This document shows positions 4,337 to 23,950 of a DNA stretch of 36,308 nucleotides, piece by piece. Origin of the DNA: a virus; IMG/VR virus record IMGVR_UViG_3300020465_000049, positions 1-36,308 of that record; one strand, written 5' to 3'. The notes under the pieces are model-generated. The model worked only from the letters and a program-made list of their open reading frames with translations. It was not told where the DNA came from and searched no databases. Numbering within the stretch: position 1 is the first letter of the stretch; every line of letters starts with the position of its first letter. The translations under genes and the position numbers were made by a program.

Positions 4337-7300
4337 ATGGCAAACCTACAAAGAAATTTTATCGCGGGAAGGATGAACAAGTCTCTCGACGAAAGGCTTG
4401 TACCGAATGGAGAGTATATAGACGCATTAAATGTTAGGCTTGGTTCTACTGAAGCTTCCGAGATAGGGTCAGTAGAAAACTCAAAAGGCAATACTAAAAT
4501 GACAAGTTTGCAGTATGAGCAAACAAATAGTGTTACTGGAGCTGTACTCTTAAGTAATCAAGCAAGGTGTATCGGGGCTTATGAAGATGGACAAAACAAT
4601 AGAATTTATTGGTTTGTACACGACCCTGCTTTTTCTGTAGGAAATACAGGAAAAATAGATATGATTGTTTCTTTTAATCCCACGACACAAAATTTAACCT
4701 ACCACATAATTAGTATTGACGATGGATATGGAGGGAATACTACCCTGAATTTTAATCCAAAACATTTGATTACAGGAGTAGATTTAGTAGAGGATTTATT
4801 ATTTTTTACAGACAATATAAATCCTCCGAGATATATAAATGTTACTCAAAATTATCCTAACCCTTTATTTGACATAGATCAAACTACTGCTGAGGAGTTT
4901 ATGGTTATTAAAAAACCCCCAGTAACTGCGCCAGTTTTAATTTTAAAACAACAAATAAATAATTTAGATGATTTTTTAGAAACTAGATTTATTTGTTTTG
5001 CATATCGTTATCAATACGCTAACGGTGAATATTCAGCTACATCCCAATGGTCAGAGCCTGCGTTTGATCCAAACAATTATAACTACAGTTATGCTACGAA
5101 TTTAAATGAAGGGATGGTTAATACAGTAACCGGAGTGGATGTTCAATTTAATTCTGGAAGCGCGTTAGTTAAAAACATCGAAATCTTATATAAAGAAATT
5201 ACCGATGGTACTGTTAAAATAGTGGATAAGTTATCTAAAGACCTTCAAGGTTTTGCTGATAATACCCAGTATAGCTTTACGTTTGACAACAGTAAAATAT
5301 TTACGGTACTTCCATCCACTGAATTGCTTCGTCTTTACGACAATGTCCCTATAAAAGCATTGGGTCAAACTTTAATGGGTAATCGGTTAGTTTATGGTAA
5401 TTATATTGAGGGTTATGATTTAAAAGATATATTTAACAACCCCGTTAAATTAGAATTTATTACTAATTTAGTAGAGAACCAAATACAAAACTTTTCTTTA
5501 ACGACAAGCCTAGAAGCTGGATCTTATACTTTTGGAAGCGTCCAGACAATTCCTAATTCTATAGCTAAAGTAGATTTTTCTAGTGTGGATACTTTTACAC
5601 AGCTCAAAGCAGGGACTTCTTTTGTTATATATTTTACGTTTGAACATTCTAAATATGACCCAACAGCCAGTCAGCCTACCACTACTACAGAAAATGTAGA
5701 TGTTCAGTTTGCTTATGTCTTACCTCAAGACTATACGTCTATATATGACTTGGTTGCAGCTGCAGATTTTCAAGAAGCTATCGGTACGGTCTCTAATATA
5801 AAACCCGTTTATGATGCGGTAAACCCTACTTCATGTTCGGGATATACTTTAACAGATTTTGTAAATTGTTTTATTCCTACTACTCAAACCACTTCTACAG
5901 GAACAGTAACTAAATTTTCTAGTGGTATTACTGCTGCAGGAGAGCCTGTAAAAATTGTAGACAATACACCAGCTACTACAAGTATAAAGCTGCAATTACC
6001 GGCAATGCGATATGTAACGGACCCTGCAAGTCCAAGCGGAGGATGGTATGAGTATTACAAATATATTTCCCTAACCGCTCAATTTACTACTGTATCTAAT
6101 CCAAAAAGTTTACATAGTAATAGAGGGTATGAAATAGGAGTGGTTTATATGGATGAGTTTTTGCGCTCTTCTACAGCTTTAGTTAGTCCTAATAACACTA
6201 TACAAATCCCGTGCTCTAACTCTAGATCTCAAAACCAAATACAAGTAAGTATCCCTTGGGCGCAAAGAGCACCCTACTGGGCTAAGTATTATAAGTTTGT
6301 TCTTAAACCAGATCAGTCAACTTATGAAACAATTTATAGTGAAATATTTTTTAAGGACCCTCAAAGCAATAGTTATTTCTTTTTATTAGAAGGAGAAAAT
6401 GCAGCCAAAGTTGAAGCGGGTCAAAGACTGATAGTCAAAAGAGATAGCGGAGGAGCAGTGGAGCAATGTGTTGAAGCTGTGGTAACGGACAAACAAGTAC
6501 AGTCTTCTGATTTTTTAAAAATACGAAACCCTTTTGACACTACAACTTACCCTGAGGAACCACCAGAAGACCCATTTGCTGTAGGATATTACATTAATCT
6601 CCCAGCAGGGCCTTACATGGAGATGGTTCCTAGTGGATTTAATATAACTGAAACAACTAGTGTAGGTGGTAGTGCAGTAGCAAATACACCTGTAACCTCC
6701 ACTTTTCCAATCAGGGTAAAAACTAAAGGTTTCCCTGTGGGGCGTGCGTTGGTAAATGTTCCAAACTTAGATCCAAATGCTAGTCCTACCGCAAAATATA
6801 TAGATTATACTATTCCAGTTAATAGTCAAATTAACATTACAATAGAGCAACGAAGAGAAGGGGCTAGAGGTGGATTTGCAGGAAGATGTGAATATAGGTA
6901 TAACACTTATGAGTCTCCAGATTTAATTGCTTCAACAGATTATGCAAATTTTCAAGCATGGTTTGAAGGTGATAATATAGGAGATTTAATTACACAAATG
7001 AGTAGAGTAGACAACGGAGACGGCAGTCAAACTACCAACACTTATATTGCAGGAACTCCAATAGATGGAACTAGTACTGGATTAAATGTCAGTGAGCCAC
7101 CTGAAACTATAAACAGCACTGATCAAAATCCATTTATTCCTGTTGCTTTAGGAACCAATACGTATCAATTTTTTAACGCTAATGATGGGTCTAAATGGTT
7201 GTTAGCGACTGGTACATCAAGCTGTAAAGCTGCTGCTAATCTCTTTGGTGGGAATGTAGGCGGGCGCGCGTCTAGTGTATACATGAAAATTACAGTTCAA

Positions 7301-10075
7301 AGAGCTGATCAAGGAGGGGTAGTTGTTTTTGAAACAATTCCTTCAGACGCATCTCCTGATATATGGTATGAAAATGATGTTAATTTTGAAGTCAATGCTA
7401 ATGGAGAACATCAAGGTAGCTACGGTTGGCAAAATGTTCAAACAAAAACTTCGGCGGTATCAGACACTGGATTTTTTAATTGTTATTCATTTGGTAATGG
7501 TGTAGAAAGTTATACTGTAAGAGACTCTGTAAAAGGCGAAGCTTTAGCTTTAGGAAATAGAGTGACAACAACATCAGGTCAAGATTATAAAGAGGCCCAT
7601 AGGTTCGCTGATTTAACCTATAGCGGGGTGTTTAACGATGAAAGTAATGTAAATAAACTTAATGAGTTTAATTTAGGATTAGCCAATTTTAAACCGCTTG
7701 AAGACTCCTTTGGTTCTATTCAAAAACTTCATGCTAGAAAAACAGACATACTTACTTTGCAAGAAGATAAAATATCTTACGTATTAGCTGGCAAAGATTT
7801 GCTTACTGATGCAGGGGGATCAGGGAACCTTACTTCTGTTCCAGAAGTATTAGGCCAGCAAATCTCTCGTATAGAAGAATATGGGATTAGTAGAAATCCT
7901 GAAAGTTTTGCAGTGTTTGGTGCAGATAAATTTTTTACTGACGAGCAAAGAGGAGCAGTTATTCAACTGAAAGGAGGCGCTTATAATCAAGAGTCTTTAA
8001 CAGTCATTTCTGAACTCGGTATGAGGTCTTGGTTTAGGGATTTGTTTCATAATAATTTTGATGCTCAAAAGTTAGGTGGATTCGATCCGTATATGAACGA
8101 ATATATTTTATCCGCCAACAGTATAACTTTGCCATTTGTTGGGAATTGTGATTTATGTGGAAGTTCTAGAGACATAGCTATACCTGTAGGCGAAACAATA
8201 TCTTATTGTGTGGATGTAACACAAGAAGTAGGCACTGTAGAGATTGAATATGTTATTCCCAGTGGTGGTAATAACAATGTTATTACTGAAGCCAATACAC
8301 CCAATCCTAGTGCTGGATTGGTTAATGTTATAACTGAAACTAATTCAACGGCATCTTCTGGGAACGAGATAGTCGTAGAAGACTCTACTTCAAATAATAC
8401 TTATACTATAACAGCTTTATATAATGGAACCACTACAAGCGTAACCACGTCTATAAATGGTATTTTAACTGTAGCTAAAAACTCTGTATATGCAGAAAAT
8501 TTAACTGTTGAAGTTTCGTCTAATAGTATAACTGAAGATACTATTGAGATTACAGTAAATTGCCCTACGCCCGATGATATAACTATCATTCAAGTAGGTA
8601 TTGGAAGTAATGCCGATAAAGGTAAATTTATTCATAATGAATATAGATGGCAAGATGGTTTATTTAATTCTCCTTTACACAGTGAATTAATGGAGTTTAA
8701 AAGTGGCAAAGAAAATCCCTTAGTAAGTCAATATTTAAGTTTAACTGGAAGCCAAGGAGCGGGGGTTATCCCAGATGACGACGCCAAGGTGACAATCATA
8801 AGTAATAAAATTAATTTTGATGACTATGATTTTGAGCCTAACACTAACAACTTTAGATTTTTAAGATCAGCAACAGTTTATGGTAATATAACTTCCGATA
8901 TAATTTCTTTATTAGCGGCATCTACTAATGTCACACCGCTTCAAAATAATGCGCCAGAATTTTCTGCTACATTTACTATGCCAAGCGGGGCTACTAATGA
9001 TAATTTATATTTAATATATGATTACAGGGATTCAACTGCGGTACAATTATGTTATTCAACAGTAGATCTAAATGATGTATGCTGTGTAGGGTGTAATGTA
9101 GAACCAACGCCGGTTCCTACTCCGGAGCCTACGCCTACTCCTATAGGATGTATATCCTATACGTTAGCTTCACCATCTACTTGTACGAGTTACGATGTTA
9201 AAGCAAACGCAGATACCATTCGTATTGATTTTACTAATTGTGATGGAGATGCTGATTTTGTAGCAAATGTTCCTGCTGGAGATGCTGTAGACGTGTGTTC
9301 AACTACTGTCCCTACGACTACTCCTGGAACAGGTACTGTTACAGCAGGTGTGAGTTGCGGTGGTACAGCCAATACATTTACTTGGTTGGCATGTAATGGA
9401 GTACAATTAGAGGAAACAGTAGGAGGGGGAGATTCAAGTGTGGTTTGTGCTTCAAATATACCTGTAAGGTCAGTAGGTACTAATGGAACAGTGACGGCAG
9501 GAGCAGCATGTGAAGAAAAATATTACGCAGCAATACAATGCGGTAGTAGTGGTACAAGAGTTTTCTTGTCGGGAAGTGCTTCTCTTGGAGTCTTTAGCGT
9601 AGGTAATGTTGTCTACTATGATGAGATAAATTTAAGCGGCTCAAATATACCTATAAGAAAATGCGCTACAATAGAAAAAATTAATTGGGGCAATGGAAAT
9701 GGTGGAGAAATAGTGGGTCAAGCGTCTTCGTGTAAAGATGCTACAAATTGTCCAAGTGATTTAACGGATAACCCTGTATGGATGTTTAACACAAACCAAG
9801 ATGGAGGGTTTGATACTCCTGCTAATTTAACGTGTAACAACACGGTATTTTGCGCTGCACCGGCATTTACTTCTATTACTACTACTGCAAATTTATTTGC
9901 TAATAATACTTTATTTTTCTCAGACAGAGATTTTAATTTACCTTTCAACGGGAATAATAAATATTATGGATTTGTTGCTCCTCCACCAGGAAGCAAGTAT
10001 GCAACTCAAGATTTTATGGAAGGATGGGTGCAGATAGGTAGTGACGGAAGGGTAATATCATTCTTTACATGTTAA
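4337..10075 (+). CDS. Large tail stabilisation protein with C-terminal adhesin-like modules
   Basis: This 1912-residue protein begins one base after the previous stop codon (TAAAATG). Residues 1-60 (FIAGRMNKSLDERLVPNGEY, then DALNVRLGSTE and GSVENSKGN) match the start of P22 gp10-like tail stabilisation or crAss-type muzzle proteins. Such proteins close the tail end and hold fibres; the match is from memory of the family. The body to about residue 1580 is Asn/Thr-rich and beta-rich. A Pro-Thr hinge, PTPVPTPEPTPTP (1590-1602), then separates a Cys-rich C-terminus of about 310 residues. That tail carries a module (about 1751-1800, FSVGNVVYYDE then a CATIEK strand) and a final SDRDFNLPFNGNNKYYGF segment that resemble repeats in the next gene. 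It is longer than usual for the family, and the extra length is mostly the C-terminal part, which looks like a fused host-contact region. Confidence 0.72.
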   Translation: MANLQRNFIAGRMNKSLDERLVPNGEYIDALNVRLGSTEASEIGSVENSKGNTKMTSLQYEQTNSVTGAVLLSNQARCIGAYEDGQNNRIYWFVHDPAFSVGNTGKIDMIVSFNPTTQNLTYHIISIDDGYGGNTTLNFNPKHLITGVDLVEDLLFFTDNINPPRYINVTQNYPNPLFDIDQTTAEEFMVIKKPPVTAPVLILKQQINNLDDFLETRFICFAYRYQYANGEYSATSQWSEPAFDPNNYNYSYATNLNEGMVNTVTGVDVQFNSGSALVKNIEILYKEITDGTVKIVDKLSKDLQGFADNTQYSFTFDNSKIFTVLPSTELLRLYDNVPIKALGQTLMGNRLVYGNYIEGYDLKDIFNNPVKLEFITNLVENQIQNFSLTTSLEAGSYTFGSVQTIPNSIAKVDFSSVDTFTQLKAGTSFVIYFTFEHSKYDPTASQPTTTTENVDVQFAYVLPQDYTSIYDLVAAADFQEAIGTVSNIKPVYDAVNPTSCSGYTLTDFVNCFIPTTQTTSTGTVTKFSSGITAAGEPVKIVDNTPATTSIKLQLPAMRYVTDPASPSGGWYEYYKYISLTAQFTTVSNPKSLHSNRGYEIGVVYMDEFLRSSTALVSPNNTIQIPCSNSRSQNQIQVSIPWAQRAPYWAKYYKFVLKPDQSTYETIYSEIFFKDPQSNSYFFLLEGENAAKVEAGQRLIVKRDSGGAVEQCVEAVVTDKQVQSSDFLKIRNPFDTTTYPEEPPEDPFAVGYYINLPAGPYMEMVPSGFNITETTSVGGSAVANTPVTSTFPIRVKTKGFPVGRALVNVPNLDPNASPTAKYIDYTIPVNSQINITIEQRREGARGGFAGRCEYRYNTYESPDLIASTDYANFQAWFEGDNIGDLITQMSRVDNGDGSQTTNTYIAGTPIDGTSTGLNVSEPPETINSTDQNPFIPVALGTNTYQFFNANDGSKWLLATGTSSCKAAANLFGGNVGGRASSVYMKITVQRADQGGVVVFETIPSDASPDIWYENDVNFEVNANGEHQGSYGWQNVQTKTSAVSDTGFFNCYSFGNGVESYTVRDSVKGEALALGNRVTTTSGQDYKEAHRFADLTYSGVFNDESNVNKLNEFNLGLANFKPLEDSFGSIQKLHARKTDILTLQEDKISYVLAGKDLLTDAGGSGNLTSVPEVLGQQISRIEEYGISRNPESFAVFGADKFFTDEQRGAVIQLKGGAYNQESLTVISELGMRSWFRDLFHNNFDAQKLGGFDPYMNEYILSANSITLPFVGNCDLCGSSRDIAIPVGETISYCVDVTQEVGTVEIEYVIPSGGNNNVITEANTPNPSAGLVNVITETNSTASSGNEIVVEDSTSNNTYTITALYNGTTTSVTTSINGILTVAKNSVYAENLTVEVSSNSITEDTIEITVNCPTPDDITIIQVGIGSNADKGKFIHNEYRWQDGLFNSPLHSELMEFKSGKENPLVSQYLSLTGSQGAGVIPDDDAKVTIISNKINFDDYDFEPNTNNFRFLRSATVYGNITSDIISLLAASTNVTPLQNNAPEFSATFTMPSGATNDNLYLIYDYRDSTAVQLCYSTVDLNDVCCVGCNVEPTPVPTPEPTPTPIGCISYTLASPSTCTSYDVKANADTIRIDFTNCDGDADFVANVPAGDAVDVCSTTVPTTTPGTGTVTAGVSCGGTANTFTWLACNGVQLEETVGGGDSSVVCASNIPVRSVGTNGTVTAGAACEEKYYAAIQCGSSGTRVFLSGSASLGVFSVGNVVYYDEINLSGSNIPIRKCATIEKINWGNGNGGEIVGQASSCKDATNCPSDLTDNPVWMFNTNQDGGFDTPANLTCNNTVFCAAPAFTSITTTANLFANNTLFFSDRDFNLPFNGNNKYYGFVAPPPGSKYATQDFMEGWVQIGSDGRVISFFTC

Positions 10076-10095
10076 AAATTAATTAATTTTACACA

Positions 10096-12321
10096 ATGGC
10101 AACAGCTGGAATATACTACATAGACACATTTAATTTTGCAGATGCTACTGCAGTATATACAGATGCGGCCCTAACGACGTTTGCTCCCGATGGTTATTAT
10201 CAAATGGGTGGAGCAACTGCTCGCCAACAAGTAGGCGGTATATTACTACCCGCAGAACCTTGTCCTTCTTGCGCTAAACCATCACCGGATCCTACTCCAA
10301 CTCCAAACAATGCTTTTAAAGTAACAGATAAGGTAACCTCAGTAATTGATCACGTTGTTCTAGATAACAATTTCACCGTGGGAGAAGAGGTGACTACGGA
10401 TATTTCTTCTAATTGTTGGCTTATAAATGAAAAGGCAGTAAATAGCACGACTAATGTTATTACAGGTAAATGTGCTGTTGTACCACCGCCGCCTGCTGAG
10501 TATTATGAATTAGATTTGTGTCCTATTTCTGCTAATACGGGCGTCCCTACTAAAATTTACAGTTCATTAACGCCTACTTCAGGACAGAGATTATATGTAG
10601 TTAATATTTATAATAACGCTTATTATCTATACAACAATGCTCAGCCTGTAACTACTCCCGTACCTGGGATACCATTAATTGAAACAGGCATTTCTTTAAC
10701 TGCTGCTAGTGCTTGTCCTACAGTTCCAACCCTTTATACATATTGGAACGCTCAAGAGTGTAATAACCCTAACATTACTAAAATAATTCAAGCTCCCGAT
10801 GGAACTAGTTTTGTAGTGGGTCAGTCAGTTAAAATATCTAATACGTGTTATGAAATAACAAGTCAAAGGGTAGGATCAGCTACTACTTTTGATATACAAT
10901 ATTTAGCAGGAGGAGCTGTTTACACAGGTTGTACCACTGGAGCTACGCCTTGTATTGCTGCTGTACCACCAAACACTTCTTTCTTAGCTAGAGAGAATAC
11001 AACTCTTGCTGAGTATCATGTTCTAATGAAATCAGGTTTTAAAGTGAATGATAATGTAGAAATACAAACAAGCGGGGGTGTACAAATTGCTGGGTGTTAT
11101 AAGTTAGTTAGCCAGTCTACTACTCCTACCACTAACACTATAATAAATGATTGCCCTGATGTATCTGCATGTGCAACCTATAGAGTTATTGGCAGTGGTA
11201 CATTTAATAGGTGTTCAGACGGTCAGAGTGTTTTTAGAGATTATAGCTCAGACCCTTCAGGAGAAGTGTGTGCACGATTAGAAACTGCGAATTTTTCAGG
11301 GGGTGCAACACAAATTGGAACTTGTATTACTGACATTCCTTTTGAGCCCACAGGTTTTGATTATTTTAGGGCCGTACCATGTGATGGAGGCGCAGAAATA
11401 ATTGTGAAAACCGATGGGACACTTCCCGAAGAGGGTCAGGCAGTTAAAGTAGACGGTGGAACTACTTGTTATGAAATTAAAGGAACTTCAGGAATCGAGA
11501 CAGCAATCAATGATATAACTGATCTAACAGATAATTGTAATGAATGTAACCCTCCTGCCAATTGTTTTCTTCATCAAGTAGATTATGTGAATAGCTTTAC
11601 TGTGTGTACCGCTGGTACATTTGGGGTTACTTTTGCTGATAATAGTGATTTTTCCGCAGCTACTAAATTATATTCATCGAATGGATGTGTAAACTCGGCA
11701 CCTGCGCTTGATGGAACTTATACTGTTACTACTTCGACTAGTAAAATATCTAGATATTGGGATGGTGTTACACTTGGAAACGCTACTGTATGCAGCAGTA
11801 CACCGCAAAATGTAACAGCTACTATAACATCATTTGATAATAAAATTAAAGGAAGCACTGAAGGCGTGGGTTACACAGTAACAGGGTCGGGAATAAATTC
11901 CTCAACTACTGGAGCTTCGCCTTTGTCTATACCATCTGGCGGAAATTCACCTTTTAACACTGCTATATCAGTAAATCCAGGCTTTAGTATAACAGGCGCC
12001 GACGTTATTTACAATCCTACAAGCATAACCCAAAATTCAAGTGTTACAGTAAGACTAGAAGGGACAATAACGGAAGATGCGCCTACCAATGTTTATTTTG
12101 TGTTATCATGTGGTAATTTACTATACTATAGAGTTGAGTCCCCTTCTGCTTTATCAAACGGAACAGTAATTTACTTTAGATCTACCGCTGGTCAAGTGTT
12201 GTGTGGAACAGTACAAGGCACAGATTTAGGGGCTAAGAACGCTGACTTGATTCAAATAATTACTTCTCAAGGTTGTAACAACAGTTTGTGTACGCAAGGG
12301 AGTTTCAATCCTATGTTCTAA
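10096..12321 (+). CDS. Cys-rich modular tail fibre or adhesin-like protein (741 aa)
   Basis: The protein has 741 residues, no signal peptide and an unusually high Cys content. The N-terminus holds the motif AVYTDAALTTFAPDGYY (about residues 19-35), then GGILLPAEPCPSC and a Pro-rich hinge, PSPDPTPTP (62-70). At least four imperfect copies of a beta module follow, of the pattern V-G-x-x-V, about 8 residues, C-Y-x-I, Thr-rich strand, Cys; they centre near residues 96, 242, 317 and 445. The C-terminal third is Ser/Thr/Gly-rich and beta-rich. The same module and hinge occur at the end of the preceding protein, which suggests the two meet in the same part of the tail. A receptor-binding or fibre role is inferred. 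The ATG at 10096 lies 20 bases after the previous stop codon. Confidence 0.75.
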   Translation: MATAGIYYIDTFNFADATAVYTDAALTTFAPDGYYQMGGATARQQVGGILLPAEPCPSCAKPSPDPTPTPNNAFKVTDKVTSVIDHVVLDNNFTVGEEVTTDISSNCWLINEKAVNSTTNVITGKCAVVPPPPAEYYELDLCPISANTGVPTKIYSSLTPTSGQRLYVVNIYNNAYYLYNNAQPVTTPVPGIPLIETGISLTAASACPTVPTLYTYWNAQECNNPNITKIIQAPDGTSFVVGQSVKISNTCYEITSQRVGSATTFDIQYLAGGAVYTGCTTGATPCIAAVPPNTSFLARENTTLAEYHVLMKSGFKVNDNVEIQTSGGVQIAGCYKLVSQSTTPTTNTIINDCPDVSACATYRVIGSGTFNRCSDGQSVFRDYSSDPSGEVCARLETANFSGGATQIGTCITDIPFEPTGFDYFRAVPCDGGAEIIVKTDGTLPEEGQAVKVDGGTTCYEIKGTSGIETAINDITDLTDNCNECNPPANCFLHQVDYVNSFTVCTAGTFGVTFADNSDFSAATKLYSSNGCVNSAPALDGTYTVTTSTSKISRYWDGVTLGNATVCSSTPQNVTATITSFDNKIKGSTEGVGYTVTGSGINSSTTGASPLSIPSGGNSPFNTAISVNPGFSITGADVIYNPTSITQNSSVTVRLEGTITEDAPTNVYFVLSCGNLLYYRVESPSALSNGTVIYFRSTAGQVLCGTVQGTDLGAKNADLIQIITSQGCNNSLCTQGSFNPMF

Positions 12322-17620: not shown

Positions 17621-20600
17621 ATGGAAGAAATATACATTACTCCGAATGGTTTAGAATTAACTGAATCTGAGTTACGTCAAGAATATGGAGACAGATTTGA
17701 TGAATTTGTAGCGCAAGGATTATTAAAAAAAAAATCTATCAATCAGGCTGTCTCTCCTGAAGGGGAGGTTATAGCTGAAGAACAGAGTGTTACTCCAGAA
17801 GAAGAGTTTAGCCCTGGGGATTTAGAGGTTTTAGAAAAAGATTTAGTGTTTGGGCAAAACCAGACACCAACTAATGAGCCGCCTGTCGAAACTCAAGAGG
17901 TTGTTTCTGAGACTACAGAAGAATCATTTGTTATTCCCGAAGTTTTAGAAGAAGATCCCCAAACTATTTCCGCTGATGAAATTAAAAAACAAAGAGAGTT
18001 TTTAGAAACTCAAGGCGTAAATGTAGATGCTGAATTAAGAGAGAGAAAATTTGGAAACAAAGATACTACGGGTAATGAAGAAGGAGATATAAATTTAATA
18101 TATAATAGTTATATTACCACCAACGCGTCTCAAGATATAGTTACTGACTTAGAGTCTAATCTTTTAAAACCTCTTATGCGTACTGAAGAAGTTGATGTTG
18201 AAGTTACACCGCCTTCTATAGATGAAAAAATACTAGAAAAACTTGCAATCGATGCTGAAGATTACGCTAAATGGGCCGCTCAATCTTTAAGAGAAGAATC
18301 TGCCTCGTATAAGTTTTTAAAAGAAGCTTTGCCTACCGAAGAGGGAGCTCAGTTTGAACAAGAAAAAAAAGACTCTGAGCGCGTTCTTTCTTATAAAATG
18401 GAGATAATGAATAATCTCAGACAGGATATAGCCACCATTGATTCACGTCTTCAATTAGTAACAGACCCTAAAGATAAGCTGAAGCTTTTAAATATAAAGG
18501 GTAAATTAGAAACCTCTCTAATAGATCAAACTAAAATATTAGGCAAAATGGGAGAGCTGTTTCCTAAGTTTAAGGAGTTTACTTATGATTTGGATTTAGA
18601 AAGAAGAAAAAAAATATATAACGCTGGACAAAAAGGCGGGGCAGTAAGAGTGTTAACTGAACTCGGAGAAACCGCAAAAACTATACCCACAACAATAGCA
18701 GATTTTGCTCTTAATACAGCGGCCGTAGTAACATCTTTGCTAGATCAGGGTATTGCAGCTGCTGGAGGAGATAAAAAAGGAGTTTTAGCTGGTATTACCG
18801 AGATGTTGTTAGATAGCAGTCAGGCTTTAGATATTGAAATAGGGCCCGTAAAAAGATCGGGTGTCACAGAAGGAAAGCCTGTAACGGTGGGGGGCAACGA
18901 GTATATAGTAACAGAGGAAGGCGATGTTATTGATCCTATTACTAATGTAAGTATGATAGGTATAATTTCAGACGATAAGCTTGCGCTAATAAAAGAACGC
19001 GCAAAAAATGTTAAGTTTTCTGAAACCAATTTCAGTGGAGGAAGTTTACTTCAAGGAGGAGTGCAAACTCTTGCTAATCTTTTTGCTTTAATAAAAGGGG
19101 GTCAAAGATTTGCAAAAGCGGCTGGGGTTTCTCCCAGCGTTGGAATGGGATTAGCTTCCTATTCAAGCACCGCTGCTCAAGCTGTAGAGGATATGAAGCA
19201 AGATTTAATAAATGCAGGGCTAACTGAAAAGGAAGCTTTAGATAAAGCAGCTATTGCTGGAAACGCTATTGCTACTTTAGATGGTGTATTCTCGGCTTTG
19301 GCGGGGGATAACAAAAAAATATTATTTAGTCTTCAAGGGTTTAGAACGGCTATAATTAATGCAGTAAAAAAAGATGGAGCTAAATTTACTAATGATCAAT
19401 TAAAACAAAAAGCCAAAGATTTAGCTAAAGAAAATTTTAAAGAAGTTGTAATAGAGGAATTACCTGTGTTGTTTTCGGAAAAAGGAATCAACGCTTTGGT
19501 TAATGAGGTAGTGGATACAGAAGTTAGGTCAAGTAAAGTTAAAGACAGTGAGATAATAGAAACAATAATTTTAACTCTCGGAGCTACAACCGCTTTAGGA
19601 TCAAAAAATTTATTAACTAAAAACAAAAGATCAGACGCTCTTCGTTATGTGGCTAGAAATGTAAATGATTTAGAGGGGACTATTAAAAAATTAGTAGACA
19701 ATAATAACATAACTGAGCAAGAAGGGAAAGAAGTGTATGATGAAATCTATGCGATGCAGACTGCAGAGAATAGAACTAAAGGGACAATAGTTAATTCTGA
19801 CAACATGTTAGAAGTTTCTGATTTGTTGAACCAGCGTCAACGCTTGATTGATCAGAAAAAAGATTTAGAGGGTCCTTTAGCTGAAGAAATTGACCAAAAA
19901 ATTGCTGACGTAGATGAGCAAATAAACCAAGCTAAAGAAAGAGACAACGAGCAAAATAAAATAAAAGATAAAGTTGTTCCCCCAAAACAAGCAGACACAG
20001 ATCAGACTGCTAGGGGAGAAATTGAAGTAGATAATGAATTTGCAGAGTTTTCAGATCAAACGATAGCTTTTAGGGACAGAGAAACACTTACAAACAAAAC
20101 TGGAGTTGAGGCTGAGGTAGGAGATAGGTTTGTTGAAAAAACGGTAAATGATGGAATAGAAAAAGGGCAAACTACTCAAGAAATATTAGATAGAATTACC
20201 CCACGCTATGGTTTTGATAATAGCGAAATAGCGGCACTAAAAGAATTTATAGAAGGAAAAAAGGCAGGAAAAATTAAAAATGATTTTGGTACTTATAGAA
20301 AAGGTAAACCAAAAACAGAACAAGAGGTCGAAACTATAGAAGAAACTTACACATTGCCCACGGACCCTGTTGAAGCTCGTAAAGATTTTGAAGTTCTTGA
20401 TAATAGAGACCGAGCGCAAGGTTTAGAAATAGAAGAAGATGGCGCGGGAAAATGGGTTGTCAGAAACAAAAAAACCGGTAGAATAGTTTATTCTAAAACT
20501 AAAAAAGATGCAGAGTTTTTAGCAACAAAAGATGGCTCAGCAAATTGGGATTACGGTGAGGGTGATGTTATAGAAGTTGAAACAACAGAAACGGAAACTG

Positions 20601-23600
20601 AATCTGAGGAAGAGGTTGTTATTGAAGAAGGTAAGCCTTTAACTGTTAATGAAAACAAAACACTTTTTAAATCTATTCGAGACCCTAAAACGCCATTAGA
20701 AACCAGAAGAAAAGCCTTCGTTGATATTATAAATAAAATTAAAACTAAAGGTAAAGTAGCAGCTCGAAGAGCTAAATCTTTAATTAAAGAAGTAGAAAAG
20801 CTTAACTATAAAAATCCCGTTACCGTAGAGAAAACTATTCAAAAGATTACTAAAACCTTTGACAAAGCAAACAATGTAGAAGCTTTGAGTGTAGCAAACA
20901 AAACTAAAAAACAAATAAAAAAAGCCGCTAGTAATAAAAATCTAGATGCTAATGTCTCGACGGCAGCGAAAGAGTTTTTAAGAATTGATCCATTGACAGT
21001 AGATGATTTGGCGCAGTATCAACAAAAAGCGGAGGAGTTGCTCCAAGGACTTAGGTCTACTAGAAGAACAAAGACAGGGGTAAAAGTAGCGCCAGCTGTT
21101 GATATTAAATCGACGGAAGAATATTCTGCCAAAGAAATTGAGGCGCAAGATAAGAGACAAGCTCAGTTAGAAGCAGATGCTTTTGAGGCTTTAACAGGAG
21201 TTCCTCCTGCAGATTTATCATTAAGCGAGGTTCGTGATATAATTTATAATGAAGAGACAACTGAAGAGGCGAAAAAAACTAAAGCGGAAAAGAAAAGCAA
21301 AGTAATATTTGATGCTTTAAAAAATGCTTTCAGCGTTTATACTTCTGTTGTAGATGAACAATTAAAAACCAAAACAGATCCTTTTAAAAGAGACCTGGAT
21401 ACTGGAGAAAAAATTGAAATAACTGCAGATCAAAAACGAATAGTAAGGGCCTTTATGAACATGGATTTAAATGTTCTAACAGATCAAGAAGCTTTACAAG
21501 CGTTAGACTCTTTAATTAATTTTGCTACTAACGCCTCTACTGGAGGAATGGAAGCCGTAGTAAGTAATTATGTAGGGCGAACTAATTTAGTCAAAGCAAT
21601 AAAAGATGGCCTTAAGGGCATTTCTTTAAATGCTGCTGGAAATTTCTGGTCGTCAAATATTGCTTCAGTTCCCTTAATGCTAGAAATGATTTTTAAGGGA
21701 CAGTCACGAGCTGCCAAAATTTTATCTCTTTCAGGCTTTCAAGATGTGGTAAATGGCGCCGCTAAAGCAGAAACACAAACCCGACAAATTGAAGAAAATT
21801 ATGTTAAGAAATTTGATAAATCTAAGCCAAACGGAGAAGCGTTCAATACCTCCCTAAATATGATTGAACGCGGAATGTTTGCTTTTATGAGGAGAACATT
21901 AGTAGGGACAGAAGCGGAGCAACAACAAGAGTTTGAAAGAAAGAAAGCTTTAATTTTAGAGTCTATAGAAAAATTAAAGGCTACTAATAATAAGACAGAT
22001 AATGAGAAGGCAGATTTTTATCAAGAAGTCTTTGATAAAATACTTAAAGATTCTAATAATGTTACCGATGTTGAATCGAAAGTAGATAAAAAAAATATCG
22101 AAGCTGTTGAGTGGATGACAGAAGAATGGAAAAAGCACTATAAAGATTTAAGCAACACTAATTTAAATATATATAATAAAAAACTAGATCAAGATATTAA
22201 TTATACCCCCGATGTATTTAGTTTGCTAGAGCCAGATACCTCTCAACAAAAAATAGATGAGCCTATGTTTGATACATCAGGAAGAAGAATCTACAATAAA
22301 GAAACAGGGGTGCTGAAAAAATCCAAACGCCCTAAATCTTTGGACGAAAGAAGATATGTTAATCTTAGTTTTGATACCGCAAACATAAATAGCTTAAGAA
22401 AAGCTTTGACTGATGTCAATACTGCTGCAGCTATACAGCAAGTAAAAGGATTTACTGAGTCTGGTGATTTTGATAAACTTATACCAAAAAAAGCTGATAG
22501 AGATATAGTTTACAATCGAATGAAAGAATATATTGCCAAGAAGAGAGGCTTAGAATATACTCCGCAAGCAACTAAAACAATTTTAAAATATTTTAACACA
22601 CTAACATCTTTAGGGGTTTCGAGAACTTTAGGGAGTATGGGCCAATTTATTAAACAGCTTACCCCCCTGTTTAACACAATGGTAAATGCGGGAGGAGTAA
22701 ATACCATTGATGGGATTAGATTGTTTACTAATCCTACAGTTATAACTTGGTTGAAAAATAGTGGTTACGATATAGCTAATAGAGGAATCTCAGCGTCAGC
22801 TAACCTGGAAAGTTTAAGTAGAAAAGTAGATGAAGCCGCTAACAGTAAGCCCGAAAAACTTAGACGCGGATTTCAAAATGTACAAAATTGGTGGATTGAC
22901 AAGTTCTTAGTAACGCCAGATAAAATAGCTGCTAATGCATCATGGATGGCTTATTATGCAAAAGACATGAAGAAACAAGGCATAGATATTACTGCTCCAG
23001 GATTTGATTGGGAAAATCATAAAGTAAATAAAAAAGCTGGAGACTATGCTCAACAACAAGTTGACCGACAACAAAACATATCGGATCGTGACTTACAAGG
23101 AAAATTATTTAGTTCTAATAATCCTTGGGTTACCATAACAAGACAAGTTTTATTACCCTTTTCTAACTTTTTGTTAAATCAAAAAGCAAGAATGTATTCT
23201 GATGGTAGAACTTTAGTTAGTAAAACTGCTGCAAAAGAAGACAAGGCTAAAGCCTTAAGATCGCTAGGTGGTCTTGTGGTTGAGACCGGTATATTTAATT
23301 ATTTAGGCTTAATGCTTACCCAAGCTACCGCTGCGGCTTCAAACTATCTTATGGGAGAAGATGATGAAGAGCAAGCTGCAAAAGATTTAGAAAACAGGCT
23401 CAAAGGAAGATTACAAAATGTAATTTTAGATGTATCTAATCCAGCTCCTCCTGCAGATGATTTATTAATCAGGGCGATAAATGGGGGTATAAAAATGATA
23501 GACGATGATGAAGATCCCTTTCAGTTTTTTGAAAGTAATAAAAAACTAATTGAGGATTTAGGATTGATTAGTATATCTCTAGATAAGATATTTGAATTAT

Positions 23601-23950
23601 ATGATTTTGCTAATGTAATGGCGACAGGAGAGTATAAAAAAGAAAATGCTTTTGGAGGAAGTAAAACGCACCAGTTGTCAACAGACGAAAAGAAAGCTGC
23701 TCAATACAGTACATTACTATTATTTTTGTATACTATAGGTGCATTGCCAGCTGAAGCTGGGAGTATTGCGAGATACAACATGCGAACGATTAAAAGAAAA
23801 GTTTCTAAAGCACCCAAATATTTAAACGCTAAGGATCAAGCCAGGTTAAAACGAACTAATCGAAGAAGGTGGGAGCAAGAATATGGGCCTAAGAGTTTTT
23901 ATGCAAGAGATAAAAAAAGAAAAGCTGAAGAAAGAAAAAGAAGAAAATAA
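17621..23950 (+). CDS. Giant ejection or internal virion protein (2109 aa)
   Basis: This is the longest gene of the window, 2109 residues. The N-terminal 180 residues are acidic and Glu/Pro/Thr-rich, probably disordered. Helical sequence follows, with weakly hydrophobic stretches near 345-390 (ELGETAKTIPTTIADFALN), 480-530 and 640-655, then a long Lys/Glu coiled-coil-rich centre (about 660-1190). A compact region near 1290-1450 (GISLNAAGNFWSSNIASVP) and a helical C-terminal region hold a final amphipathic or hydrophobic segment near 1885-1910 (GIFNYLGLMLTQATAAASNY) and a very basic end (KRKAEERKRRK). It is the third member of a 251/669/2109 set. Length, hydrophobic patches and position correspond to the largest ejected protein of podoviruses, which enters the cell and helps pull in DNA. 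No transglycosylase motif was found. Confidence 0.75.
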   Translation: MEEIYITPNGLELTESELRQEYGDRFDEFVAQGLLKKKSINQAVSPEGEVIAEEQSVTPEEEFSPGDLEVLEKDLVFGQNQTPTNEPPVETQEVVSETTEESFVIPEVLEEDPQTISADEIKKQREFLETQGVNVDAELRERKFGNKDTTGNEEGDINLIYNSYITTNASQDIVTDLESNLLKPLMRTEEVDVEVTPPSIDEKILEKLAIDAEDYAKWAAQSLREESASYKFLKEALPTEEGAQFEQEKKDSERVLSYKMEIMNNLRQDIATIDSRLQLVTDPKDKLKLLNIKGKLETSLIDQTKILGKMGELFPKFKEFTYDLDLERRKKIYNAGQKGGAVRVLTELGETAKTIPTTIADFALNTAAVVTSLLDQGIAAAGGDKKGVLAGITEMLLDSSQALDIEIGPVKRSGVTEGKPVTVGGNEYIVTEEGDVIDPITNVSMIGIISDDKLALIKERAKNVKFSETNFSGGSLLQGGVQTLANLFALIKGGQRFAKAAGVSPSVGMGLASYSSTAAQAVEDMKQDLINAGLTEKEALDKAAIAGNAIATLDGVFSALAGDNKKILFSLQGFRTAIINAVKKDGAKFTNDQLKQKAKDLAKENFKEVVIEELPVLFSEKGINALVNEVVDTEVRSSKVKDSEIIETIILTLGATTALGSKNLLTKNKRSDALRYVARNVNDLEGTIKKLVDNNNITEQEGKEVYDEIYAMQTAENRTKGTIVNSDNMLEVSDLLNQRQRLIDQKKDLEGPLAEEIDQKIADVDEQINQAKERDNEQNKIKDKVVPPKQADTDQTARGEIEVDNEFAEFSDQTIAFRDRETLTNKTGVEAEVGDRFVEKTVNDGIEKGQTTQEILDRITPRYGFDNSEIAALKEFIEGKKAGKIKNDFGTYRKGKPKTEQEVETIEETYTLPTDPVEARKDFEVLDNRDRAQGLEIEEDGAGKWVVRNKKTGRIVYSKTKKDAEFLATKDGSANWDYGEGDVIEVETTETETESEEEVVIEEGKPLTVNENKTLFKSIRDPKTPLETRRKAFVDIINKIKTKGKVAARRAKSLIKEVEKLNYKNPVTVEKTIQKITKTFDKANNVEALSVANKTKKQIKKAASNKNLDANVSTAAKEFLRIDPLTVDDLAQYQQKAEELLQGLRSTRRTKTGVKVAPAVDIKSTEEYSAKEIEAQDKRQAQLEADAFEALTGVPPADLSLSEVRDIIYNEETTEEAKKTKAEKKSKVIFDALKNAFSVYTSVVDEQLKTKTDPFKRDLDTGEKIEITADQKRIVRAFMNMDLNVLTDQEALQALDSLINFATNASTGGMEAVVSNYVGRTNLVKAIKDGLKGISLNAAGNFWSSNIASVPLMLEMIFKGQSRAAKILSLSGFQDVVNGAAKAETQTRQIEENYVKKFDKSKPNGEAFNTSLNMIERGMFAFMRRTLVGTEAEQQQEFERKKALILESIEKLKATNNKTDNEKADFYQEVFDKILKDSNNVTDVESKVDKKNIEAVEWMTEEWKKHYKDLSNTNLNIYNKKLDQDINYTPDVFSLLEPDTSQQKIDEPMFDTSGRRIYNKETGVLKKSKRPKSLDERRYVNLSFDTANINSLRKALTDVNTAAAIQQVKGFTESGDFDKLIPKKADRDIVYNRMKEYIAKKRGLEYTPQATKTILKYFNTLTSLGVSRTLGSMGQFIKQLTPLFNTMVNAGGVNTIDGIRLFTNPTVITWLKNSGYDIANRGISASANLESLSRKVDEAANSKPEKLRRGFQNVQNWWIDKFLVTPDKIAANASWMAYYAKDMKKQGIDITAPGFDWENHKVNKKAGDYAQQQVDRQQNISDRDLQGKLFSSNNPWVTITRQVLLPFSNFLLNQKARMYSDGRTLVSKTAAKEDKAKALRSLGGLVVETGIFNYLGLMLTQATAAASNYLMGEDDEEQAAKDLENRLKGRLQNVILDVSNPAPPADDLLIRAINGGIKMIDDDEDPFQFFESNKKLIEDLGLISISLDKIFELYDFANVMATGEYKKENAFGGSKTHQLSTDEKKAAQYSTLLLFLYTIGALPAEAGSIARYNMRTIKRKVSKAPKYLNAKDQARLKRTNRRRWEQEYGPKSFYARDKKRKAEERKRRK

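Follow-up and report, generated by a model that had tools for sequence, protein, structure and literature searches.

Cys-rich modules in the gap of a split muzzle gene suggest a hypervariable tail-tip locus in a crAss-related podovirus

We analyzed a 36,308-nucleotide stretch of viral DNA (IMG/VR virus record IMGVR_UViG_3300020465_000049, positions 1 to 36,308; hereafter the window), and in particular two adjacent open reading frames (ORFs), P0001 (1912 amino acids, aa) and P0002 (741 aa). Both are present as described in an earlier sequence-only reading, which had taken them for tail genes sharing a hinge and one recurring Cys-rich module. The N-terminal part of P0001 matches the virion structural protein family phrog_14478 (E 4.5e-208), and tblastn searches with P0001 recovered structural proteins of Cellulophaga (phi46:3, phi38:1), Flavobacterium (elemo), Tenacibaculum and Maribacter phages. 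Downstream, P0008 matches PF25729, crAss_MUZ_C (E 5.6e-17). The N-terminal part of phrog_14478 is matched by P0001 and the C-terminal part by P0008. The crAss_MUZ_C domain is absent from the P0001 chain, and among the loci read it is fused only in phi38:1 and elemoA. A profile search for a solved muzzle structure returned no PDB chain at E≤0.01, perhaps because the sequences have diverged too far. On this homology we assign P0001 as the muzzle protein of crAss-related phages and P0008 as its missing C-terminal domain. The modules described below thus lie between the two parts of a muzzle gene that has been split. The sequence-only reading had overlooked both the split and a Skp1-type N-acetylglucosamine (GlcNAc) transferase homologue within the locus. 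The genes are as follows.

4337-10075, plus strand: P0001, ORF of 1912 aa
4337..8116, plus strand: main part of the muzzle (tail-tip) protein, P0001 residues 1-1260 (phrog_14478, tblastn)
10096-12321, plus strand: P0002, ORF of 741 aa
12360..13583, plus strand: P0004, Skp1-type polypeptide GlcNAc-transferase homologue (PF11397), between P0002 and P0008
13611..14405, plus strand: P0008, muzzle C-terminal domain on its own gene (PF25729 crAss_MUZ_C)

BLASTP comparison of P0001 and P0002 with themselves and with each other gave nothing significant apart from the hinge. Since the repeats are invisible to BLASTP, profiles were needed. We aligned 14 orthologues of P0002 (alignment A1) and of P0001 residues 1261-1912 (alignment A2), cut the aligned orthologues into segments and compared all pairs profile to profile, expressed below as hhalign probabilities. 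The internal and cross-protein repeat score on which the sequence-only reading depended failed in BLASTP, apart from the hinge, and held in profile comparison with shuffle controls. At least four Cys-containing modules could be told apart, which that reading had merged into one. The P0001 tail (1586-1912) has the architecture hinge-C-C-B-E, and P0002 reads A-B-x-B-B-C-B-A-D-B, with its hinge between the first A and the first B.

9104..9142, plus strand: Pro-Thr hinge PTPVPTPEPTPTP, P0001 1590-1602 (from sequence; not conserved in every close relative)
9179..9361, plus strand: module C, first copy, P0001 1615-1675 (hhalign 95.7% to the next C; hidden Markov model (HMM) 4e-21)
9359..9514, plus strand: module C, second copy, P0001 1675-1726 (hhalign, HMM; predicted beta, predicted local distance difference test (pLDDT) about 70-81)
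9512..9754, plus strand: module B, divergent copy, P0001 1726-1806 (38% against the B profile; 0/60 shuffles; five strands)
9773..10072, plus strand: module E, P0001 1813-1912 (hhalign 97.6% to the muzzle-C extension of loci L031-L037)
10096..10278, plus strand: module A, P0002 1-61 (58.6% to 490-567; N-terminus of nearly all slot proteins)
10279..10305, plus strand: Pro-rich hinge PSPDPTPTP, P0002 62-70 (from sequence)
10315..10485, plus strand: module B copy 1, two-Cys subtype, P0002 74-130 (98.6% to copy 3; pLDDT about 88)
10732..10953, plus strand: module B copy 2, four-Cys subtype, P0002 213-286 (98.1% to copy 4)
10963..11169, plus strand: module B copy 3, P0002 290-358 (profile comparison, HMM, model)
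11167..11328, plus strand: module C, P0002 358-411 (73.5% to P0001 C; 0/60 shuffles)
11356..11553, plus strand: module B copy 4, P0002 421-486 (profile comparison; 25.1 bits with the HMM from other phages)
11563..11796, plus strand: module A copy 2, P0002 490-567 (profile comparison, HMM)
12082..12294, plus strand: module B copy 5, P0002 663-733 (77% against the B profile; five strands)

The hinge had been placed correctly: PTPVPTPEPTPTP lies at P0001 1590-1602 and the similar PSPDPTPTP at P0002 62-70. The P0002 copies proposed near residues 96, 242, 317 and 445 are true copies of module B, a unit of ~65 aa. Their profile probabilities were 98.6% (74-130 against 290-358), 98.1% (213-286 against 421-486) and 58.9% (290-358 against 421-486), and shuffles reached none of these scores (0/60). 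The copy proposed near P0001 residue 1751 is a divergent B (1726-1806), which scored 38% against the B profile, as compared with <1% for unrelated muzzle segments, and has the matching strand order. The list was incomplete, as a fifth P0002 copy at 663-733 (77%) had been missed, and the literal V-G-x-x-V motif is present in 3/5 of the cited copies and missing from the other two. Sharing between the neighboring proteins is real, but the strongest link is module C (P0002 358-412 against P0001 1604-1675, 73.5%) rather than the module that had been cited. Within P0001 the two C copies (1604-1675 and 1675-1726) match at 95.7%. The Y-T-D/P-D-G-Y-Y-type segment had been placed at the start of P0002 and the end of P0001. 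P0002 begins with module A, which recurs at 490-567 (1-61 against 490-567, 58.6%), whereas P0001 does not end in a copy of A: A against E gave 6.9%, and the proposed equivalence was rejected. Module E instead matches an N-terminal extension of the muzzle-C protein in L031-L037 (97.6%, E 3.8e-12), indicating that those phages carry module E on another gene. In the all-pair comparison, muzzle segments used as negatives scored about 2% or below.

Similar composition of Cys-, Thr- and Gly-rich beta strands could in principle mimic duplication by convergence, and the insignificant BLASTP self-comparison, together with the weak similarities of A to E and of B to the muzzle-C extension, fits such an account. 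In column shuffles that preserved composition (60 each), however, the real score was reached 0/60 times in each of eight pairs, including the weak pairs of P0001 1726-1806, and the best pairs have profile probabilities of 95-98%. The six B copies are also modeled with one strand order, and we consider convergence very improbable. An HMM built from the B modules of other phages only found B in P0002 at 25.1, 17.6, 11.1 and 6.6 bits, and the best of 500 shuffled P0002 copies reached 12.1 bits; two P0002 B copies exceed this control alone and the remainder depend on profile comparison. Modularity and sharing between the neighboring genes are supported by the profile comparison with its shuffle controls, and module B recurs as homologous copies in which the Cys spacing is conserved.

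Neither P0001 nor P0002 matched a Pfam family at E≤1, BACON-type and carbohydrate-binding repeats included; by this search, the Cys-rich families here are without a Pfam entry. PDB sequence searches with the A and B profiles gave no convincing match. A search of genome contigs for hosts and for a cellular source of module A found none, the patterns being too degenerate or no relative turning up. In the window, 8117-8296 (P0001 1261-1320) resembles module C (54% over 20 columns). Given this resemblance, module C may stem from the muzzle's own Cys-containing region.

AlphaFold2 monomer models were made from the 14 sequences. Their predicted template modeling (pTM) scores were low (0.28-0.29), and we therefore used local strand order alone and claim no arrangement between domains. 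Mean pLDDT was 75 for P0002 (most modules about 70-88) and 58 for P0001 1261-1912, where the C modules reach about 70-90. Within these limits, all six B copies are predicted to have five strands in identical order, and the Cys of the C-Y/W/A-x-I strand lies in strand four. Foldseek against viral models found other large proteins of uncultured phages at low TM. Against the PDB, the modeled part of P0001 matched SIDT proteins at E 8e-4 at best with a TM of 0.14, a match that we do not interpret. Of the 28 Cys residues of P0002, 27 are kept in ≥90% of the 14 relatives, which makes disulfide bonds within the modules plausible. Across B copies, 30 have four Cys, 14 have two and 16 are ambiguous, and the two-Cys copies retain the middle pair. 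We rejected Cys loss in B as a guide to disulfide pairing; the pattern mirrors a few paralogue groups and is only suggestive.

To place the locus among relatives, we compared the architectures of 109 complete related loci. The muzzle gap is hypervariable: there are 0 to 3 slot proteins and ≤16 A modules per locus, and the number and order of modules vary; the sequence-only reading had proposed variation in module number as a check. Between zero and three Cys-rich proteins lie in the gap in the window and in many environmental contigs, together with enzymes, and in some cases either muzzle gene is extended by a Cys-rich segment. Nearly all slot proteins of relatives start with module A, which suggests that this module has a docking role. 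L041-L046 contain three tandem Cys-rich genes of repeated A between both muzzle genes, and L043 has 16 A modules when the muzzle tail is counted in. The Cys-rich parts are also the fastest-changing in the cluster (57-64% identity, compared with 82-93% for flanking genes in L004 and L005).

The pair L022 and L023 shows how the slot changes. At the DNA level, muzzle codons 1183-1783 are mostly 95-100% identical, and identity is 87-96% over the initial ~300 codons of the P0002 orthologue. From the B2/B3 junction, identity falls to 38-56% over about 430 codons (about 350-750), and it is back at 95-100% for the bulk of the transferase and muzzle-C genes. Module E falls to 65% too. This pattern is a block replacement rather than drift. 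Similarly, C and B4 diverge between L007 and L020 (20% and 38%), after which identity returns to 92-97%. In L007 (2862-8491) the muzzle gene is broken into ORFs of 194 aa and 1625 aa with a gap, from a frameshift, an insertion or an assembly error. The sharp mosaicism at a module boundary in L022 and L023 supports the earlier suggestion that modules could be swapped. An Erf-like annealing protein and an exonuclease both have homologues encoded in the window, and these may carry out such exchanges. Relatives of the muzzle-C gene turn up in at least 548 environmental contigs, and nearly all complete loci read have a variable set of modules or genes in the slot; slot variation thus looks like a widespread route of tail-tip diversification in crAss-related phages. 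The L022/L023 pair offers a clean natural experiment for tying a module to a host.

Taken together, we consider it likely that the region encodes a hypervariable, modular tail tip of a crAss-related podovirus, in which disulfide-stabilized Cys-rich modules would touch the host surface. The nearest isolates belong to Pachyviridae, Pervagoviridae and Elemovirus, and the hosts are probably marine Flavobacteriia. In crAss001 the muzzle is the distal tail tip, the crass domain is thought to touch the cell, and the tail barrel and hubs bear disulfides (PMC10172136). The single muzzle gene of relatives such as phi38:1 is split here into the P0001 main part and P0008. We propose that the gap between them serves to display modules A, B, C and E, which are rich in Cys, Thr and predicted beta structure, partly as the P0001 tail and partly as the separate protein P0002. 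The conserved first 60 residues of P0002 (module A) would probably dock it. The modules would most likely form disulfide-stabilized lobes on a Pro-Thr stalk, contacting the host before the muzzle gate opens. Recombination swaps whole blocks at module boundaries, leaving the muzzle, transferase and muzzle-C genes nearly identical. The tail-tip position and the hypervariability together suggest an adhesin role. Several points weigh against this proposal. The host is deduced solely from isolated relatives, the loci searched contained no donor of the swapped L022 block (best 34% identity), and P0002 had no Foldseek match in the PDB at E≤0.001. The models are low-pTM monomer predictions, and the N-terminal module A of P0002 is modeled with low pLDDT.

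The gap also contains P0004, which matches PF11397 (GT60, Skp1-type) at E 1.8e-73 and 248.5 bits against a cut-off of 21. Its stretch D93-S94-H95-H96-R97 is invariant across phage homologues. The gap often holds a PF11397 transferase, and in all close relatives examined the enzyme lies inside the split muzzle. The gap of one clade also encodes a 2-oxoglutarate (2OG)-Fe(II) oxygenase (prolyl-hydroxylase-like, with an HxD...H pattern) and a radical SAM/SPASM protein, and single loci encode a weak match to the hydroxyproline O-arabinosyltransferase family (E 1.3e-5), an O-fucosyltransferase, a GDP-mannose dehydratase and carbamoyltransferases. Gnt1 of the PF11397 family is specific for hydroxylated proline, and a Trypanosoma member of that family is a polypeptide GlcNAc-transferase (PMC6939170). 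This gene content raises an alternative: the modules may serve mainly as a glycan-bearing shield or stalk, with their hinges and Thr-rich modules glycosylated by the GlcNAc-transferase of the locus and, in the oxygenase clade, the prolines hydroxylated first. The sugars would stiffen the stalk, guard it against proteases or mask the tip. We regard this as possible but somewhat doubtful, and it is compatible with the tail-tip adhesin reading.

Hinge distribution bears on this alternative. With a cut-off of ≥7 Pro in 16 residues and 61 non-redundant complete loci, a Pro-rich hinge was present in 14/17 loci with an enzyme and in 1/44 without one (Fisher p 4e-10, inflated by kinship). The muzzle-C tree shows only two changes between presence and absence of an enzyme, and the contrast therefore largely represents two clades and not 61 independent points. 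Because of this kinship we added a test in unrelated phages with a PF11397 transferase. A Pro/Thr/Ser-rich protein lay ≤3 genes away in 16 of 43 non-redundant loci. Such ORFs made up 13/85 of those adjacent to the transferase, 11/159 of those two or three genes away and 12/279 of those four or more away (adjacent against far, p=0.0012, with the loci linked via the transferase family and so not fully independent). Other observations argue against a glycan shield. The muzzle-C ORF of L121 (276 aa) has the Pro-rich PAPTPPPTPPSPATPT and no modifying enzyme in the gap, while L019, L022 and L027 have the transferase with weak or no hinges. The window's clade has no oxygenase, even across 49-60 kb records, so hinge modification there would use Thr/Ser or another hydroxylase. 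The jumbo phages Xanthomonas phage XacN1 (L144) and Stenotrophomonas phage RAS14 (L145) carry the same transferase family with no Pro-rich hinge nearby. The pair recurs in an unrelated context on a separate 4-kb contig lacking muzzle genes (L133:1076-3096), where a PF11397-type transferase that shares 42% identity with P0004 lies immediately upstream of the gene for a protein bearing a long PTPTPTPTLTPTITPT hinge.

Phage transferases that alter host glycans are common, and P0004 could instead modify the host surface, to exclude superinfection or mask a receptor. Its place among tail genes would then be incidental, and the Cys modules would be ordinary tail decoration. The jumbo phages, in which the family lies away from tail genes, and the gene annotated carbamoyl transferase that adjoins the XacN1 enzyme, are in keeping with this. 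We nevertheless find it unlikely: all close relatives examined carry the transferase within the split muzzle gene, PF11397 is described by a polypeptide transferase, and Pro/Thr/Ser-rich proteins are enriched beside the enzyme in unrelated phages.

Alongside the tail-tip adhesin reading, and a shade more tentatively than the shield, we suggest that a phage-encoded polypeptide O-glycosylation cassette in the split muzzle decorates the Pro/Thr-rich stalks of interchangeable Cys-rich receptor-contact modules, a pairing of transferase and Pro/Thr/Ser-rich protein that recurs in unrelated phages. In its simplest form the predicted cassette would be a lone Skp1-type GlcNAc-transferase; in its fullest it would also include a prolyl-hydroxylase-like oxygenase along with transferases of the hydroxyproline or fucose type. 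Glycosylation would be an extension of the adhesin reading to which the gene neighborhood alone points. If true, the phage would encode hydroxyproline-type or mucin-type O-glycosylation for its own tail; the literature searched on phage tail O-glycosylation and hydroxyproline does not describe this system. Elsewhere in the window, a 2109-aa ORF (17621-23950) has no PHROG match at E≤0.001 and lies where relatives have a large structural protein.

Among known systems, the Skp1 pathway of Dictyostelium and Toxoplasma (PhyA, Gnt1; GT60) resembles the locus in its PF11397 transferase, which in one clade shares the locus with a 2OG-Fe(II) oxygenase. It differs in that this is a phage locus with a predicted activity, the putative substrates are Pro/Thr-rich tail hinges and the window has no oxygenase. 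Gut crAss-like phages have BACON repeats and tail fiber proteins diversified by diversity-generating retroelements (DGRs) at the host-contact end (PMC6949934, PMC10136315, PMC12386605). The likeness lies in repeat domains or targeted diversification at that end of the particle, whereas the modules here have no Pfam match and diversify via whole-block replacement, although no search aimed at a DGR was made. The closest annotated record is Podoviridae sp. ctfjg026 (MW202828, Manatee Spring), in which the muzzle is likewise split and its tail bears a C module, while the slot encodes an A-module protein of 183 aa annotated as a putative glycosidase; unlike in the window, the slot protein is short, and it lacks B modules and the transferase. 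Cellulophaga phi38:1 (gp97), phi46:3 (gp111/gp112) and the Flavobacterium elemo phages share the gene order and homologous muzzle parts. The phi46:3 muzzle is encoded by two adjacent genes, as here, but with nothing between them, while phi38:1 and elemoA have a single muzzle gene with 3-4 Cys, and phi38:1, phi46:3 and elemoA have no A, B or C modules. The proposed glycosylation cassette is likewise absent from the isolates phi38:1, phi46:3 and elemo. Finally, the crassvirus muzzle (crAss001 gp44; PF25729; phrog_14478) has homologous N- and C-terminal parts here, and its length variation through insertion is already known (PMC10172136). In the window the gene is instead split, and the break bears a multi-module Cys-rich tail, a second Cys-rich product encoded on its own and a putative modifying enzyme.

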